A stretch of DNA of 6,844 nt from Conexibacter sp. Its GTDB lineage: Bacteria; Actinomycetota; Thermoleophilia; Solirubrobacterales; Solirubrobacteraceae. Positions within the stretch are counted from its first letter, which is position 1; every line of letters starts with the position of its first letter. The translations under genes were made by a program, and so were the position numbers. A model generated the notes under the pieces. That model saw nothing but the letters and a program-made list of their open reading frames with translations. It made no database searches and was not told the origin of the DNA. Below, in pieces: positions 1,162 through 6,844 of this stretch. The stretch spans positions 1-6,844 of the forward strand of contig JAOPZD010000050.1 of assembly GCA_025964295.1 (NCBI GenBank). The letters run 5' to 3'.

Positions 1162-1638
1162 ATGCCCGAGATCGCCGAGCGGATGCTCGAGCTGGCGAAG
1201 GAGGCCCTGGCCGAGCAAGAGCGGCAGGTGGCCGACATGCGCACGCGCGCCGCCACCATCCTCGGTGCCGGAGGGGTCATCGGCGGCCTGCTTGGTCCGC
1301 AGGCGTTCGCCGGTCCGCATCCCACCACCGGATGGGACTGGCTGACGTTGATCACCGGCCTCGTCGCGGCGGCGGCGCTGCTCGTCTGTGCCTTGTTGGT
1401 GTTCACCCTGAGGTCGCTGGCCTTCAGCATGAACGCTACCGCCACCTATACCTGGTTGTACAACAACGGCTTGACGGTCCAGCCCTACGTCGACCTCGAG
1501 CTGGCCGATCGCCTGGTGACGACGCGCGACGTAAACAACGAGGCCGTGACGCCGATGCGGTGGTGGTTCCGGGGCGCCCTGGGCAGCCTGGTCGTCATGA
1601 CGGCTGCGCTCGCGACGGCGGCGGCGCTAGCATCGTGA
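1162..1638 (+). CDS. Small membrane protein, three predicted helices, unknown function
   Basis: I do not recognise a named family. The 158-residue product begins with an amphipathic, charged helix (about 1-28, MLELAKEALAEQERQVADM, coiled-coil-like). A Gly/Ala-rich hydrophobic stretch follows (about 31-50, ATILGAGGVIGGLLG), then a strong transmembrane segment (about 60-83) and a roughly 50-residue polar part (TYTWLYNNGLTVQPYVDLEL, then DRLVTTRDVNNE). A final transmembrane helix covers about 135-157. The start is ATG 1162 because an in-frame TGA sits at 1153-1155; a GGAG at 1145-1148 is rather far away, so an internal ATG at 1183 is possible. Codon use differs from its neighbours: five TTG leucines plus TAT, TGT, GTA and CTA codons, all scarce in recA and recX, which may mean recent acquisition. 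The helix-plus-membrane-hairpin plan loosely recalls SLATT or Pycsar-type effectors, but no nucleotide-cyclase partner is nearby, so this is only a shape resemblance. Confidence 0.75.
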   Translation: MPEIAERMLELAKEALAEQERQVADMRTRAATILGAGGVIGGLLGPQAFAGPHPTTGWDWLTLITGLVAAAALLVCALLVFTLRSLAFSMNATATYTWLYNNGLTVQPYVDLELADRLVTTRDVNNEAVTPMRWWFRGALGSLVVMTAALATAAALAS

Positions 1639-1897: not shown

Positions 1898-3079
1898 TCA
1901 GTCCGGCTGCATCACGACCTGCAGCAGTGTCTCGTAGCCCGGGTGCGTGATGGGCGTCCAGACGGCGCCGGCGTTCTGGCTGTCGCCGCCGGAGGTGTGG
2001 GAGGAGGTGGTGATGTCGGCGCGGGCGGCGAACCAGACGTAGGCGTGCGACGTGGTGGTGCCGGAGTTGTCGACGGTGACGATGTCGCCCTTGCGGACCG
2101 TGCAGCAGGCGAAGCTCAGGGCGCTGGTCGAGTACGAGTGGGTGCCGGCGTCGTGGGCCGACAGCGTGTACACGGGGTTGGTCGTCGTGACAACGGTCAC
2201 CGTGCCGCCCGCGCTGGGGCGGACGACCGAGAAGCGCAGCGGCAGCTCGACGGGGCTGTCGCCGGTCTTCAGGCGGAACGAGGTGATCGTGCCGTCGGTT
2301 GGGACGGTCAGCGCCGGCGTCCAGAACTCGGTGTCGTCGGGCGCGAACCTGGCCGGCAGCGCGACGGGCGTCCCGGACAGGTCGCTGCCGAACGTCAGCG
2401 GCTCCTTGGCGGGCGCCAGCGCCTTTGCGCGCCGCAGCAGGCGCTTGGCGCAGGAAGCCGCGCCGCCGGCGCGACCCGCCTCGAGCTTGACGTCGACGCA
2501 CTCCAGGTCGTCGTAGACGTCGGCGAACGCGACGCCGTGCAGGGTCTGGCCCGAGAACCGCCGGGCGACGATGCTCGACTGCAGCTTGCGCAGCGTGGTC
2601 GCCTTCGCGCCATAGGCCCTGCCGGCCGTCGCCCGCGCGGCGATGGCCTTCAGCTTGCCGTCGACCGCCAAGAGGTCGCCGGCCAGGCCCGCCGCCTTGC
2701 CCGCCGCGGCGGCGCTCGCGAGGTCCGACCGGCACGTGCGCGCGTCGGCGAGCCGCGCCCGCACCAGCCGCTTCTTGTCCGTGTTGCGCGCCCGCTGCAG
2801 GTTGAGCGAGATGCAGTCGAAGTCCTCGATGACCGTGGCGGCCGAGACCCCGCCGACCTGGTCGCTGAACGCCCCGACGATCACCTCGCGCTTGGTCGCA
2901 TGGGCCCGCGCCCGCGCCGCCGCGCCCGTCACCGACGGGCTGGACAGCTGCGCGACCAACCCGCCAAGCCCGCTCTCGAGCTCGTCGGCGGTCCCCGATC
3001 CGGCCGCCGACGCGGGCGCGGGAAGGGCCACGACGCCGACGAGGACCGCGGGCAACCACCACTGGAGGGGCTTGAGCAC
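1898..3079 (-). CDS. Secreted protein with duplicated Cys helical motif and C-terminal beta domain
   Basis: Function is unknown. The 393-residue product starts with a signal peptide: K3, a hydrophobic core at about 9-20 and a likely cleavage after PASAA near residue 26, so it is probably extracellular. Residues about 60-220 are helical and contain the same unit twice: IEDFDCISLNLQRAR with a later Cys (C89, C116) and VYDDLECVDVKLEAGR with a later Cys (C194, C210). Spacing suggests one disulfide per unit. From about 228 the composition switches to Thr/Ser/Val-rich beta strands (FWTPALTVPTDGTITSFRL, then RKGDIVTVDN), with an adjacent Cys pair at 325-326. That domain resembles beta-sandwich tails of other actinobacterial secreted proteins, possibly for surface or ligand binding (inference). 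The GTG at 3079 is the only start that keeps the whole signal peptide; ATGs at 3087 and 3090 are out of frame, and no Shine-Dalgarno is evident. It lies 69 bases downstream of the two-domain phosphatase-like gene, perhaps in one operon. Confidence 0.85.
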   Translation of the reverse strand: MLKPLQWWLPAVLVGVVALPAPASAAGSGTADELESGLGGLVAQLSSPSVTGAAARARAHATKREVIVGAFSDQVGGVSAATVIEDFDCISLNLQRARNTDKKRLVRARLADARTCRSDLASAAAAGKAAGLAGDLLAVDGKLKAIAARATAGRAYGAKATTLRKLQSSIVARRFSGQTLHGVAFADVYDDLECVDVKLEAGRAGGAASCAKRLLRRAKALAPAKEPLTFGSDLSGTPVALPARFAPDDTEFWTPALTVPTDGTITSFRLKTGDSPVELPLRFSVVRPSAGGTVTVVTTTNPVYTLSAHDAGTHSYSTSALSFACCTVRKGDIVTVDNSGTTTSHAYVWFAARADITTSSHTSGGDSQNAGAVWTPITHPGYETLLQVVMQPD

Positions 3080-3148: not shown

Positions 3149-5320
3149 TCAGCCGCCGAACGGCATGTTCTGCCAGCTGAACACCGTCGGCGAGCTGGGG
3201 TCGATCCGCAGCTTCAGCCACTCGTGCGGCTGGTTGGTCGAGCCCTGGACGGTCAGCCGCTGCAGGTTGCTCACCGATGCCTTGATCCCGTAGATCTTGT
3301 TGTTGGTGGCCGTCGGGTCGGCCAGCGGGAAGTCCGTCTCGTACAGGTGCGAGTCGCCGTTGAGCAGGAGCACCGGCTTGCGGAACCGGCGCGCGCGCTG
3401 GGCGAGCTCCTCGACGAACGGCTTGAAGCCCGAGACCTGGTCGGCGGCGATCGCGGCCGGGTCCCACATGTCGGCCTGGATGCCGACCACGACGGCCTTG
3501 GCGTGCGTCTGCTCGGCGGCGTCGAAGAGGTGGTCGACCCAGCGGATGTCGGCGATCAGCCGGCCCGCGTACTCCTTGAGCTGCCGCGCGCGCTGGTCGT
3601 CGGTCTCGGCGGTGTCGAACCACGGCGCGAGGTCGTTGTTGGACCCCGGCACGTCGACCACGCCGAACACCGTGCTCGCGTCCTTCCAGAGGACGTTCTC
3701 GACGTACGGCGCGAGCTGGTGGGCGACCGCCTTGTCGGCGCCGAGCGTGTGGCCCGGCCGGTCGAAGAACAGCGACCGCACCGTGTCGAGCCGCTCGTCG
3801 GGCTGGTAGCCGCCGTTGTTGGCCCGGTGGCAGTCGGTCCACTCGTTGTCGCCGGGCGTGTAGACCAGCGGGTCGGCGAACGCGTCGAAGTCCGAGCGGA
3901 TCTGCTGGAAGTAGCTCGTGTCACAGCGCGACGAGCCGTCCTTGATGTCGCCCAGGTGCATCACCAGCCGGACGTCGGGATCGGCGTTGATGGCCTTGAC
4001 GTCGTCGGGGAAGCTCGCGAGCTGGGCGGCGCCGTAGGGCGTGTCGCCGATGACCGCGTAGGTCTGGGTCGGCAGGACCGGGTCGTGCAGCGTCGGCACG
4101 TCGACCTGGATCACGTCGGAGTAGTCGGGCAGGCCCGGGTTGCGGCCGGTCGACCCGAAGTTGGTGTCGTTGACGACCGCGACGCGGTCGCCGCCGGTCG
4201 GCAGGATCGCCTCGACCGTCTGGTAGGGGAAGGCGAACGGGTTGCCGAGGCCGACGTCGCCGGGGCGCGCACCCACGGTCGAGATGCCGGCCGGGTCGGC
4301 GAGGTCGAGGAGATCGAGGGTCTGGCGCTTGGCCAGCGTCCCGTCGCCGCCGGTCTGCGCGAGGTCGACGACGAACGCGCGCTTCCACGCCGCCGCGGCG
4401 CCCTGGTCGTTGTCGCGCTCGAGCGCGAGCAGGTGCGTCTTGTCCAACCCATACAGGTCGGAGACCGAGTAGCCGTTGGTCGCGGCGTCGCCGGGCGTCC
4501 CGACGCGGTAGGAGCGCCGCACCGACGTGTAGGACTTGGTCTTGAGGTCGAACTCGTACATCCGGCGCACCTGCGGGTCGTCGCCCTTCACCGCTCCCTC
4601 GAGCGTCGGGTAGAGCTTGGTGCCGTCGGCCGACAGCGCCATGCCCTCGAAGCCCGCGGAGCTGTTGAGGTTCGCGGCGCCCGCGACGGGCGCGGGGAAG
4701 TCGGCCGGGTAGTCGGGGGACTTCACGTCGGGCGTCGGGATCGGCGCGTCGAGCACCTTGCCGGTGGCGTCGGTGTGGACCAGGAACGGCCCGAACTCCT
4801 CGCCGAACCAGAAGTCACCGCGCTTGGTCTGGCGGACCGACTCGATGTCGAAGTCGCCGCCGGTCAGCAGCCGCTCCTTCGTCGCGCCGTTGACGATCGC
4901 GAACGGGATCCTGTGGGCGGGGTCGCGCAGCGTGATCGCGTCAAGCACCTTCACCGCGCCGCTGCCGCCCTTGGCGGTCCGGAAGCTCGCGTGGATCTTG
5001 TAGAGGCGCAGCAGGAACGAGCGCGAGTTGGCCTTGGTGCCGAAGCCGTTGTCGGGCATGGCCCAGTAAGTGGACTTGCCCCCGGCGTCGATCAGCGCCG
5101 AGAAGCCGCCGACCGGCTGCGTCGCGCCGGGCGCCGGCGCCGGGTCGGTGTTGATCACGCCCGGGAAGGGTGCGGGGGCGGTCGCGTCGGCGGGGAGGAT
5201 CGCGCGACCGAGGAGGGTCGCGCCGGAGGGCGCGGGCGCCGCGATGGCCGCCGCCGGGGCGACGCTCGCGAGCACCGCGGCCGCCACGGCCAGGAGCGCG
5301 GGAAGGGGGCGTGTGGTCAT
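3149..5320 (-). CDS. Exported fusion: phytase-like/esterase-like domain plus metallophosphoesterase domain
   Basis: The 723-residue product has a signal peptide (TTRPLPALL, then an Ala/Val core to about residue 28), so it acts outside the cytoplasm. Residues about 34-412 match the phytase-like (esterase-like activity of phytase) family: GGFSALIDAGG at 71-81, YWAMPDNGFGTKANS, FDIESV at 157-162, WFGEEFGPFLVHTDATGKVL at 171-190 and GFEGMALSADGTKLYPTLEG at 223-242. Residues about 420-723 form a calcineurin-like phosphoesterase: YAVIGDTPYG (D426), MHLGDIKDGS (D458), YTPGDNEWTDC (D491, N492) and LLLNGDSHLY (D656, H658). In the classical fold these positions bind two metals; here GNHE is replaced by GDNEW and the final GHxH by GDSHxY, as I recall for a secreted subfamily. 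C466 and C497 could pair. I chose ATG 5320, which has GGGGTG upstream; an in-frame GTG at 5329 is the alternative. The substrate is unknown; a phosphate ester is a reasonable inference. Confidence 0.9.
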   Translation of the reverse strand: MTTRPLPALLAVAAAVLASVAPAAAIAAPAPSGATLLGRAILPADATAPAPFPGVINTDPAPAPGATQPVGGFSALIDAGGKSTYWAMPDNGFGTKANSRSFLLRLYKIHASFRTAKGGSGAVKVLDAITLRDPAHRIPFAIVNGATKERLLTGGDFDIESVRQTKRGDFWFGEEFGPFLVHTDATGKVLDAPIPTPDVKSPDYPADFPAPVAGAANLNSSAGFEGMALSADGTKLYPTLEGAVKGDDPQVRRMYEFDLKTKSYTSVRRSYRVGTPGDAATNGYSVSDLYGLDKTHLLALERDNDQGAAAAWKRAFVVDLAQTGGDGTLAKRQTLDLLDLADPAGISTVGARPGDVGLGNPFAFPYQTVEAILPTGGDRVAVVNDTNFGSTGRNPGLPDYSDVIQVDVPTLHDPVLPTQTYAVIGDTPYGAAQLASFPDDVKAINADPDVRLVMHLGDIKDGSSRCDTSYFQQIRSDFDAFADPLVYTPGDNEWTDCHRANNGGYQPDERLDTVRSLFFDRPGHTLGADKAVAHQLAPYVENVLWKDASTVFGVVDVPGSNNDLAPWFDTAETDDQRARQLKEYAGRLIADIRWVDHLFDAAEQTHAKAVVVGIQADMWDPAAIAADQVSGFKPFVEELAQRARRFRKPVLLLNGDSHLYETDFPLADPTATNNKIYGIKASVSNLQRLTVQGSTNQPHEWLKLRIDPSSPTVFSWQNMPFGG

Positions 5321-5419
5321 GCCGAGCACCCCACACGCGCCGGGAGCCGCGGATGTATCCGGCGTGTGAGCGGCCGGTGACCGTCCTGAGAACGACGGCC
5401 GGGACTACGCTCCGATCCC
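5321..5419. promoter_or_regulatory. Divergent intergenic region
   Basis: These 99 bases separate the start codons of the minus-strand fusion gene and the plus-strand acetyltransferase, so both promoters should lie here. On the minus strand, GGATACATCC (5351-5360) is the only AT-richer patch and might contain a -10 element; GGGGTG just before the ATG serves as its Shine-Dalgarno. A 5-bp inverted repeat, CCGTC (5381-5385) and GACGG (5394-5398), is present but weak evidence of an operator. Confidence 0.45.
5384..5411 (+). promoter_or_regulatory. Candidate promoter giving a leaderless mRNA for the acetyltransferase
   Basis: TACGCT at 5406-5411 fits the actinobacterial TANNNT -10 pattern and ends 8 bases before the ATG at 5420, placing the transcription start at or next to the start codon. 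A weak -35 (TCCTGA, 5384-5389) has a 16-base spacer. No Shine-Dalgarno precedes the ATG, which agrees with leaderless translation, common in actinobacteria. Confidence 0.35.
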
Positions 5420-5938
5420 ATGCCCATCGACTTCGGCATCGACCGCGTCGCGACCGCGCACCTGGCCGGCCGACGGCCCGAGGAGGGCGATGCCCAGGCG
5501 TTCGCGCGGATCCTCACCGATCCCCGCGTCGACGAGGAGGCGTGGCCCGCGCACCTGCGCACGACCGACCGCGCCCAGAGCATGTTGGACGACATGATCC
5601 GCCACTGGGAGCGCTGGGGCTTCGGGCCGTGGACGGTCCTGCTCGACGGCGAGCCGATCGGCTACGTCGGGCTGCGCCACGCCGACGTCGCCGGCCATCC
5701 CGAGGTCGAGCTGCTGTGGTTCCTCGACGCCGACCACTGGGGCGCGGGCTACGCGACCGAGATGGCGCACGAGGCGCTGCGCGTCGCCTTCGAGGTCCTC
5801 GAGCTCGACGCGGTCGTGGCCCAGACGACGACCGCCAACAGCGCCTCGCGCGGGGTCATGGAGCGCCTCGGGATGACCCACGAGCGCGACGCAGTCCACG
5901 CCGGCCTGCCGCACGTCGTCCACCGCCTGCGCCGCTGA
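5420..5938 (+). CDS. GNAT family N-acetyltransferase (RimJ/RimL type)
   Basis: This is a cytoplasmic enzyme that transfers an acetyl group from acetyl-CoA to an amine; the acceptor cannot be told from sequence (a protein N-terminus, an amino acid, or a small molecule such as an antibiotic). The 172-residue length is normal for a single GNAT domain. The RimJ/RimL-like layout is visible: GRRPEEGDAQAFARILTDP at about 17-35, WTVLLDGEPIGYVGLR at 71-86 (strands beta2-beta4), and the acetyl-CoA pyrophosphate loop HWGAGYATEMAHEAL at 106-120. The last replaces the usual R/QxxGxG/A with WGAGYA. The C-terminal motif is TTTANSASRGVMERLGM at 136-152, with the Asn/Ser/Arg/Glu pattern typical of this group. 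The start is ATG 5420 with no Shine-Dalgarno and a possible leaderless promoter. It is divergent from the secreted phosphoesterase gene and upstream of the riboswitch, with no obvious functional link to either. Confidence 0.9.
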   Translation: MPIDFGIDRVATAHLAGRRPEEGDAQAFARILTDPRVDEEAWPAHLRTTDRAQSMLDDMIRHWERWGFGPWTVLLDGEPIGYVGLRHADVAGHPEVELLWFLDADHWGAGYATEMAHEALRVAFEVLELDAVVAQTTTANSASRGVMERLGMTHERDAVHAGLPHVVHRLRR

Positions 5939-6023
5939 GCCCTCACACACGACCCACAGGTTCATAAGCGGACCGCAACTGTCGTGCGCGCGGCGAGTTC
6001 TCATCGCCAGAACTGTTCGATCA
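5939..6023 (+). promoter_or_regulatory. Leader region upstream of the riboswitch, with inverted repeat
   Basis: This gap should hold the promoter for the riboswitch transcript, but I could not identify a convincing -35/-10 pair. It contains an exact inverted repeat, AGTTCT (5996-6001) and AGAACT (6009-6014), with a 7-base spacer. This could be an operator or a small hairpin just upstream of the aptamer. No clear terminator for the acetyltransferase is seen. Confidence 0.35.
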
Positions 6024-6161
6024 GGCCGAGTCCCACCGTCTCCGGACGGCGGGAGCGGGGGAACCACTTGGAGCGGCAGCGGATGCCGGTCCCGGGGCGA
6101 ATCGTCGCGGTCCATGCGACGTAGCGCTTGCGCGCGAGCCCGTCAGCTCACCTCGTAGGCC
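6024..6161 (+). promoter_or_regulatory. Cyclic di-AMP riboswitch (ydaO/yuaA type)
   Basis: This RNA aptamer binds cyclic di-AMP. Conserved blocks appear in the right order: GGCCGAGTCC (6024-6033), GGGAGCGGGGGAACC (6051-6065), GGGGCGAATC (6094-6103), CCGTCAGCT (6140-6148) and CACCTCGTAGGCC (6149-6161). Closing helix P1 can form from GGCC 6024-6027 with GGCC 6158-6161, extended by GAG 6028-6030 with CTC 6152-6154 across a GTA bulge. Variable hairpins sit where the family has them: CCGTC/GACGG (6036-6040 with 6045-6049, TCCG loop), CGGCA/TGCCG (6074-6078 with 6084-6088) and GTCGC/GCGAC (6104-6108 with 6116-6120). Block order and spacing agree with the ydaO RNAs I remember. In actinobacteria this class commonly precedes cell-wall hydrolase genes and lowers expression when c-di-AMP is high; the downstream gene here is a peptidoglycan-binding protein, which agrees. 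The exact outer ends are approximate. Confidence 0.9.
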
Positions 6162-6178
6162 GCCACCCACGCACGAGG
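6151..6178 (+). promoter_or_regulatory. Possible anti-Shine-Dalgarno pairing (expression platform)
   Basis: CCTCGT (6151-6156), part of the aptamer's conserved 3' block, is exactly complementary to ACGAGG (6173-6178), which covers most of the Shine-Dalgarno GAGGAG. The stem would be 6 bp with a 16-base loop and cannot form at the same time as the P1 region of the aptamer. Only 27 bases separate the aptamer from the start codon and no U-tract is present, so translational control is more plausible than an intrinsic terminator. Confidence 0.4.
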
Positions 6179-6180
6179 AG
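6175..6180 (+). promoter_or_regulatory. Shine-Dalgarno of the peptidoglycan-binding gene
   Basis: GAGGAG lies 8 bases before ATG 6189, ideal spacing, and fixes that start codon. Confidence 0.8.
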
Positions 6181-6188
6181 CACCCCTG

Positions 6189-6844
6189 ATGGACGCCGCC
6201 TACGCCCGGATCAGCACGGACGACCGATTCGCGATCTTCGCCGCCCCGCCCGGGATCCGCGACCTCGCCGCACCGGAGTTCTGGGAGCGCTCGCTGGCCC
6301 GCTCGCACCGCCGGCGCCAGGCGGCGGCCGCGCGCGTCATCGCGCTGCCCAAGGCGGCGACCGCCCGGATCTCCGCCGCGCTGATCGCGGCCGGGATCAT
6401 CGGCCAGGCCGGCCCGATCGTCGGCGCCGCGCAGGCCGCGCAGACGACCTCGACCACCACCGGCGGCGAGCAGCGCGGCGCGGCCGTGATGGCCCTGCAG
6501 CAGGCGCTCGGCGTCCCCGCCGACGGCGTCCTCGGTCCCCAGACGCGCAAGGCCGTCCGTGCCTACCAGCGCGCGCACGGGCTGATCGTCGACGGCGTCG
6601 TCGGGCCGCAGACCCGCGCCGCGCTCGGGCTCGGCTCGGCCGGCTCCGGCACGGCGACGACCACGACCCGCACCGTCCGCGCCGCGGCGGCCCGGCTCAA
6701 CGCGTCGCTCCCGGCCGCCACCACCCGCGCCGTGCAGGCCAAGCTCGCGCTCGCCGCCGACGGCGTCTTCGGCCCGCAGACCCGCAAGGCCGTGCGCGCC
6801 TACCAGCGCGCGCACGGGCTGATCGTCGACGGCGTCGTCGGGCC
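6189..6844 (+). CDS. Peptidoglycan-binding repeat protein, probable cell-wall hydrolase (3' truncated)
   Basis: The frame from ATG 6189 stays open to the window end (218 full codons), so the C-terminus is missing. Residues 1-57 are a charged, Arg/Ala-rich leader (RSHRRRQAAAARV at 38-50). A hydrophobic stretch follows at about 61-83 (ISAALIAAGIIGQAGPIVGA) ending AQAAQ, which looks like a signal peptide with an unusually long N-region, or a membrane anchor. A Thr-rich linker leads into a PG_binding_1-type domain at about 97-147 (VMALQQALGVPADGVLGPQT, then KAVRAYQRAHGLIVDGVVGP). After a Gly/Ser/Thr linker (149-162), a second copy starts at about 165-180 (LNASLPAATTRAVQ, then LALAADGVFGPQTRKAVRAY). 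Such domains anchor enzymes to the cell wall; related actinobacterial proteins often end in an M23, NlpC/P60 or transglycosylase domain, but none is visible here. The upstream c-di-AMP riboswitch and good Shine-Dalgarno indicate regulated cell-wall remodelling. Confidence 0.9.
   Translation, partial: MDAAYARISTDDRFAIFAAPPGIRDLAAPEFWERSLARSHRRRQAAAARVIALPKAATARISAALIAAGIIGQAGPIVGAAQAAQTTSTTTGGEQRGAAVMALQQALGVPADGVLGPQTRKAVRAYQRAHGLIVDGVVGPQTRAALGLGSAGSGTATTTTRTVRAAAARLNASLPAATTRAVQAKLALAADGVFGPQTRKAVRAYQRAHGLIVDGVVG
6519..6607 (+). repeat. Direct repeat, copy 1 (peptidoglycan-binding module)
   Basis: This 89-base stretch matches 6756-6844 at 83 positions, offset exactly 237 bases (79 codons). 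The last 47 bases (6561-6607) are identical to 6798-6844. It encodes the C-terminal half of the first peptidoglycan-binding module. Confidence 0.9.
6756..6844 (+). repeat. Direct repeat, copy 2 (peptidoglycan-binding module, cut by the window edge)
   Basis: Second copy of the 6519-6607 repeat, in the same reading frame. The identity runs to the last base, so it may extend further. The six differences all lie in the first 42 bases, five of them at third codon positions and one changing Leu to Phe. Confidence 0.9.

Follow-up and report, generated by a model that had tools for sequence, protein, structure and literature searches.

The window, that is, the whole stretch of 6,844 nucleotides analysed here, ends in a gene for a peptidoglycan-binding protein, and the leader of this gene raises two questions: does it contain a genuine c-di-AMP riboswitch, and if so, what would that riboswitch do to the gene behind it? 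A preliminary description had placed a riboswitch of the ydaO class at 6024..6161. A cmscan search against all of Rfam bears this out: the c-di-AMP (ydaO/yuaA) riboswitch RF00379 is matched at 6014-6176 on the + strand with 54.6 bits (E 7e-11), which exceeds the family's gathering score of 38 bits by 16.6 bits, and the alignment takes in model positions 1-134 of 134, with the interval first proposed running from the outer end of P1 to the outer end of P1. RF00379 is the sole family past its own threshold within the window; no second RNA element scored over threshold there, and at E<=1 the Rfam scan returned just a sub-threshold match to p27_CRE on the - strand. Judged by the covariance model, 6014-6176 is a real, conserved aptamer of the c-di-AMP (ydaO/yuaA) class, which would be expected to bind this ligand. 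On the + strand, it occupies the leader of an open frame that is read in the same direction and has Pfam matches; the ATG of this frame, at 6189, follows 27 bases past P1, which ends at 6161. The features are given below, with helix coordinates taken from the RF00379 model structure as mapped onto the window via the cmscan alignment.

6014..6176, + strand: full RF00379 aptamer (54.6 bits, above the gathering score of 38; E 7e-11)
6024..6027, + strand: P1 5' strand GGCC, paired with 6158-6161 in the Rfam alignment
6031..6054, + strand: first variable hairpin (closing pairs 6031-6033/6052-6054)
6055..6060, + strand: P2 5' strand GCGGGG, paired with 6151-6156
6065..6094, + strand: second variable hairpin (model pairs 6065-6066/6093-6094)
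6095-6097/6139-6141, + strand: inner helix, from the Rfam alignment
6103..6121, + strand: third variable hairpin (closing pairs 6103-6106/6118-6121)
6124..6135, + strand: short fourth hairpin GCGC/GCGC (closing pairs 6124-6127/6132-6135)
6139..6150, + strand: conserved core CCCGUCAGCUCA, with C in place of the second A of the consensus CAGCUA
6151..6156, + strand: P2 3' strand CCUCGU, whose partner in the free minimum-energy fold is 6173-6178
6158..6161, + strand: P1 3' strand GGCC, from the Rfam alignment
6175..6180, + strand: Shine-Dalgarno-like GAGGAG, identified by eye, 8 bases before the ATG
6189..6844, + strand: gene for the peptidoglycan-binding protein (PG_binding_1, PF01471, 9.1e-29), cut by the window end

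Three of the four hairpins in the window aptamer hold inserts relative to the RF00379 model, in agreement with the three variable hairpins named earlier. The core departs from the consensus in two places (GAG for GAA and CAGCUC for CAGCUA), and the other conserved blocks are kept. One model pair, 6066-6093, is nonstandard (A-C). At position 6149, the conserved A of CAGCUAACC is C, as it is in 27 of 151 aptamers with the window counted in; in 20 of these 27, the ACCC of the P2 strand is replaced by ACCU, a variant that never occurs without the A to C change in the 17-base motifs of the 151 aptamers.

P1, P2 and the inner helices of the aptamer are kept through compensatory change in relatives. 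Specifically, 28 aptamers were aligned with MAFFT, comprising the window, 23 found upstream of homologues of the protein's N-terminus, and those of L001, L005, L008 and L028; the aptamer of L089, nearly the same as that of L087, was left out. Standard pairs fill 94.8% of 724 pair cells, compared with 40.6-50.6% after a shift of the partners by 1-3 columns, a percentage on which the scored structure, being the window's own Rfam match, favours itself. Changes on both sides were seen in 9 of 26 pairs and in 33 cells, against shuffle means of 5.0 and 10.5, and 0 of 500 shuffles reached the observed values. Across the 28 aptamers, helix 4 is weak (two pairs, 58.9% paired) and helix 5 is invariant; in helix 6, the third variable hairpin, each of the four pairs is altered on both sides somewhere among relatives.

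The gene that follows was first described as encoding a peptidoglycan-binding protein, which the PF01471 match supports, but the product is probably more than that. The ATG at 6189 opens a frame of 218 codons that runs to the window end. Among 120 listed relatives, the 34 best are 65-77% identical across the whole fragment, measure 343-382 residues and are listed with the NlpC/P60 domain PF00877, so the target is probably an NlpC/P60 (C40) peptidoglycan endopeptidase with peptidoglycan-binding repeats, whose catalytic domain would lie past 6844. The organism is named for three of these 34 and is Baekduia, which, like Conexibacter, belongs to the Solirubrobacterales; the window itself thus probably stems from a Baekduia-like bacterium. 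PF01471 repeats, present here in the non-catalytic part, are frequent in C40 endopeptidases without defining them. The product is likely exported, because its residues from about 60 to 85, behind an unusually long charged N-terminus, look hydrophobic by eye and end in AQAAQ. A single plasmid record matched, and its 22% of the query falls on the peptidoglycan-binding repeats.

The aptamer-gene pair is conserved. A search of 232 genomes from the order that includes Conexibacter (G001) with the gene's first 85 residues retrieved 27 loci (L063-L089) in 25 genomes, and Rfam on all 27 placed an aptamer directly upstream at 24, corresponding to 23 of the 25 matched genomes, although the loci had been retrieved by protein alone. 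The proposed check of whether relatives keep the pair thus came out in its favour at these 24 loci. At L082 and L085 the aptamer is absent from the Rfam results even at E 0.5, and that of L088 lies some 960 bases upstream, before another gene. Homologous loci in just 25 of 232 genomes also mean that the gene family is not general across the order. An additional scan of genome contigs with the whole protein gave 22 loci, many via generic peptidoglycan-binding repeats alone; an aptamer was present in 3 (L001, L005 and L008) of the 16 examined, a count that leaves L016-L021 outside.

The riboswitch itself scored over the cut-off in all 61 genomes of the order that were searched, with 2-11 matches each; of 14 well-known genomes used as controls, B. 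subtilis and C. glutamicum gave a match. In the three genomes closest to the window by this protein, 8, 5 and 8 matches were obtained, 20 of these 21 over the cut-off, and the diadenylate cyclase (DAC) domain PF02457 gave one match apiece in four related genomes. To describe the genes headed by the riboswitch, 116 of 141 aptamer-fetched loci were kept (3' motif, enough flank, non-duplicate, start codon) and 25 dropped; the 116 come from the best-scoring aptamers, a non-random choice, and most of those from part of the retrievals end about 1 kb downstream. At E<=1e-4, their downstream proteins contain PG_binding_1 (35), peptidase M23 (19), DPBB lytic transglycosylase (18) and transglycosylase-like (10) domains, counts that overlap and leave many proteins without an assigned domain. 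NlpC/P60 was found in 0 of the 116, where loci ending about 1 kb downstream may cut the domain off, and no transporter is among the 12 Pfam families matched. In a further set of 28 proteins (the window, L001, L005, L008 and the 24 retrieved by protein), NlpC/P60 occurs in 9 and M23 in 10. The 0 of 116, together with the gene's presence in 25 of 232 genomes, means that NlpC is not the usual riboswitch target in the order.

How would the aptamer act on its gene? In this order, it generally abuts the ribosome-binding site, since both start codons and Shine-Dalgarno sequences are found in excess over control sites. A start codon lies 6-69 bases past the conserved AGGC in 144 of 151 aptamers (median 22, middle 90% 12-43; the script required an open frame of 50 codons or more, and its search range itself limits the distance figure), compared with 33 of 124 control sites placed 160 bases further upstream and 55 of 151 on the antisense strand. 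Likewise, a Shine-Dalgarno duplex at or below -5 kcal/mol was found in 115 of 151 cases, against 5 of 124 shifted and 13 of 151 antisense sites. The short spacing from aptamer to start leaves little room for a terminator; within the window, 5900-6260 holds neither terminator-like nor sigma-70-like promoter sites, and the Shine-Dalgarno-like sequence begins 13 bases after P1.

The available data are compatible with a model, which we consider probable, in which the leader of a likely NlpC/P60 (C40) endopeptidase gene in the Solirubrobacterales carries a c-di-AMP (ydaO/yuaA) riboswitch that turns translation OFF. At high c-di-AMP, the aptamer would fold around its ligand and P1 and P2 would close; the ligand-bound RNA would then stand beside the Shine-Dalgarno sequence and obstruct the ribosome, thereby reducing hydrolase synthesis. 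We infer the OFF direction from the Corynebacterium and Streptomyces relatives, and the action on translation, presumably by steric blocking, from the geometry of aptamer and Shine-Dalgarno sequence. Specifically, the C. glutamicum nlpC riboswitch is a ydaO-type OFF switch, with reporter protein going down when c-di-AMP is made or left undegraded; the transcript is reported as unchanged, so that control is probably translational (PMC9960051). This result and an aptamer that abuts the ribosome-binding site together point to an OFF switch on translation.

Several observations nevertheless pull in other directions. The ydaO-like riboswitches of S. coelicolor and S. venezuelae include that of S. 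coelicolor rpfA, for which control by transcription termination is reported (PMC10117811), and ligand binding in the window might similarly cause early termination without a canonical hairpin and U-tract terminator. That this is reported for an actinobacterial wall-hydrolase riboswitch lacking a canonical terminator (PMC10117811, PMC9960051) lends it some weight; however, the terminator-free stretch at 5900-6260, the mere 13 bases that separate P1 from the Shine-Dalgarno sequence and a C. glutamicum reporter transcript that, as reported, did not track c-di-AMP (PMC9960051) make it unlikely here. A decayed aptamer that has lost c-di-AMP binding is very improbable. Its score of 54.6 bits does lie below many of the order's aptamers (best listed 94.9), and it combines the nonstandard pair with the GAG and CAGCUC departures, the latter replacing a core A by C, as in 27 of the 151 aptamers with the motif, a change that may affect binding and is also a point against the OFF reading. 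Yet the same departures recur in relatives whose helices covary, and the remaining conserved blocks are intact. The restriction of the homologous gene to 25 of 232 genomes and the 0 of 116 for NlpC/P60 likewise weigh against the translational OFF switch as we have described it.

The opposite direction of control, a translational ON switch, is suggested by the fold of the window RNA. Without ligand, the P2 3' strand CCUCGU (6151-6156) would pair with ACGAGG (6173-6178), and the ligand, by drawing this strand into P2, would free the Shine-Dalgarno sequence. Precisely these six pairs form when 6014-6215 is folded freely to its energy minimum, which at -89.1 kcal/mol lies 5.7 below the -83.4 kcal/mol obtained with P1 and P2 enforced, in energies that cover secondary structure and place ligand and tertiary contributions outside the model; the masking hairpin may thus form in the window RNA. 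Strand and own tail pair with -12.0 kcal/mol, the third best of 137 tails and the best of 137 strands. Taken over whole groups, the duplex energies with own tails were equalled in 17 of 2000 tail swaps within the CAGCUC/ACCU group (n=18), which is better than chance, and in 70 of 2000 over all 137 (slightly better than chance), but they showed no advantage in the two remaining groups, where 479 and 1208 of 2000 swaps were as good. In ensemble folds of 101 aptamers, with swap statistics that ignore sequence kinship, the n=18 group has 2.22 expected strand-tail pairs with its own tails against 2.03 (sd 0.30) with swapped ones, 10 of 40 swaps being as high; for the groups of 78 and 5 aptamers, the corresponding swap counts are 4 of 10 and 18 of 40. 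At least four such pairs are reached by 5, 7 and 0 aptamers in the groups of 18, 78 and 5, respectively. Since no group beats its swaps, masking by the P2 strand, favourable as its fold and duplex energies are in the window, is unsupported as a conserved mechanism. Some match is moreover expected between the pyrimidine-rich ydaO P2 strand and a purine-rich Shine-Dalgarno sequence, the Shine-Dalgarno bases are largely paired in the P1/P2-enforced fold too, and the C. glutamicum relative behaved as an OFF switch in the reported experiments (PMC9960051). An ON switch in the window is therefore distinctly unlikely, and slightly less likely still is its extension to part of the order, in which a P2 strand with CAGCUCACCUCG in place of CAGCUAACCCCG would constitute a built-in anti-Shine-Dalgarno. 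If true, such a c-di-AMP ON switch on translation would need almost no separate expression platform.

The translational OFF switch has its closest counterpart in C. glutamicum nlpC (cg2402), where an aptamer of the ydaO/kimA class is described before an NlpC-type wall peptidase without a canonical terminator (PMC9960051). The two differ in that C. glutamicum represents a separate actinobacterial lineage, that the N-terminal peptidoglycan-binding repeats are a feature of the window gene, and that the OFF direction was established there by experiment whereas for the window it is drawn by analogy. A parallel is found in Streptomyces, where one riboswitch class serves several wall-hydrolase genes of the same genome, but S. 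coelicolor rpfA encodes a lysozyme-like Rpf instead of a C40 peptidase, and the reported mode of control is transcription termination (PMC10117811). The B. subtilis ydaO/kimA element, a c-di-AMP riboswitch of the family RF00379 named for ydaO/yuaA, acts by premature termination according to the same C. glutamicum report (PMC9960051). That of B. thuringiensis kdp is also a c-di-AMP riboswitch, but controls a K+ transporter operon (PMC6488665), unlike the 116 downstream proteins in the Solirubrobacterales and their transporter-free 12 Pfam families. A literature search on riboswitches in Solirubrobacter returned one paper, which by its title concerns Mycobacterium, and one on translational control of NlpC by c-di-AMP riboswitches returned none. 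The arrangement of a riboswitch before a wall hydrolase, known in Streptomyces and Corynebacterium, is thereby extended to the Solirubrobacterales, where many of the downstream genes examined encode wall-hydrolase or peptidoglycan-binding domains, and it would fit an old actinobacterial link between c-di-AMP and wall opening. For the window, a regulatory annotation is gained rather than a new mechanism, the target class having been shown experimentally elsewhere. As such, the 'firm functional anchor' claimed in the preliminary description holds as a regulatory one, and it is not new, given the wall hydrolases of Corynebacterium and Streptomyces.

Other features of the window deserve a brief mention. 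Before its hydrophobic stretch, the protein has a charged N-terminal segment of the type RDLxxPExWExSLxRSRxRR (window 6189-6360, 57 codons, and L063-L089), which no Pfam family covers. Proteins with this type of N-terminus differ in length and catalytic type (NlpC/P60, M23). The segment occurs in 23 of the 24 aptamer-linked homologues, a circular count given that it was the search bait; among the 116 aptamer-retrieved proteins, 4 have RDL within the first 60 residues and none has the whole motif (by eye). The frame behind the aptamer of L065 (G098 C1) departs from the family sequence after about residue 70-77, and this copy looks frame-shifted or mis-sequenced. Elsewhere in the window, the frames at 1898-3079 (- strand, 393 residues) and 1162-1638 (+ strand, 158 residues) matched neither Pfam nor NCBIfam families at E 0.001. 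The C-terminal part of RecA, followed by RecX, occupies 3-1125 on the + strand, and 3149-5329 on the - strand encodes a protein of 726 residues with a phytase-like esterase domain (PF13449) and a weak match to calcineurin-like phosphoesterase (PF00149, E 0.00018).
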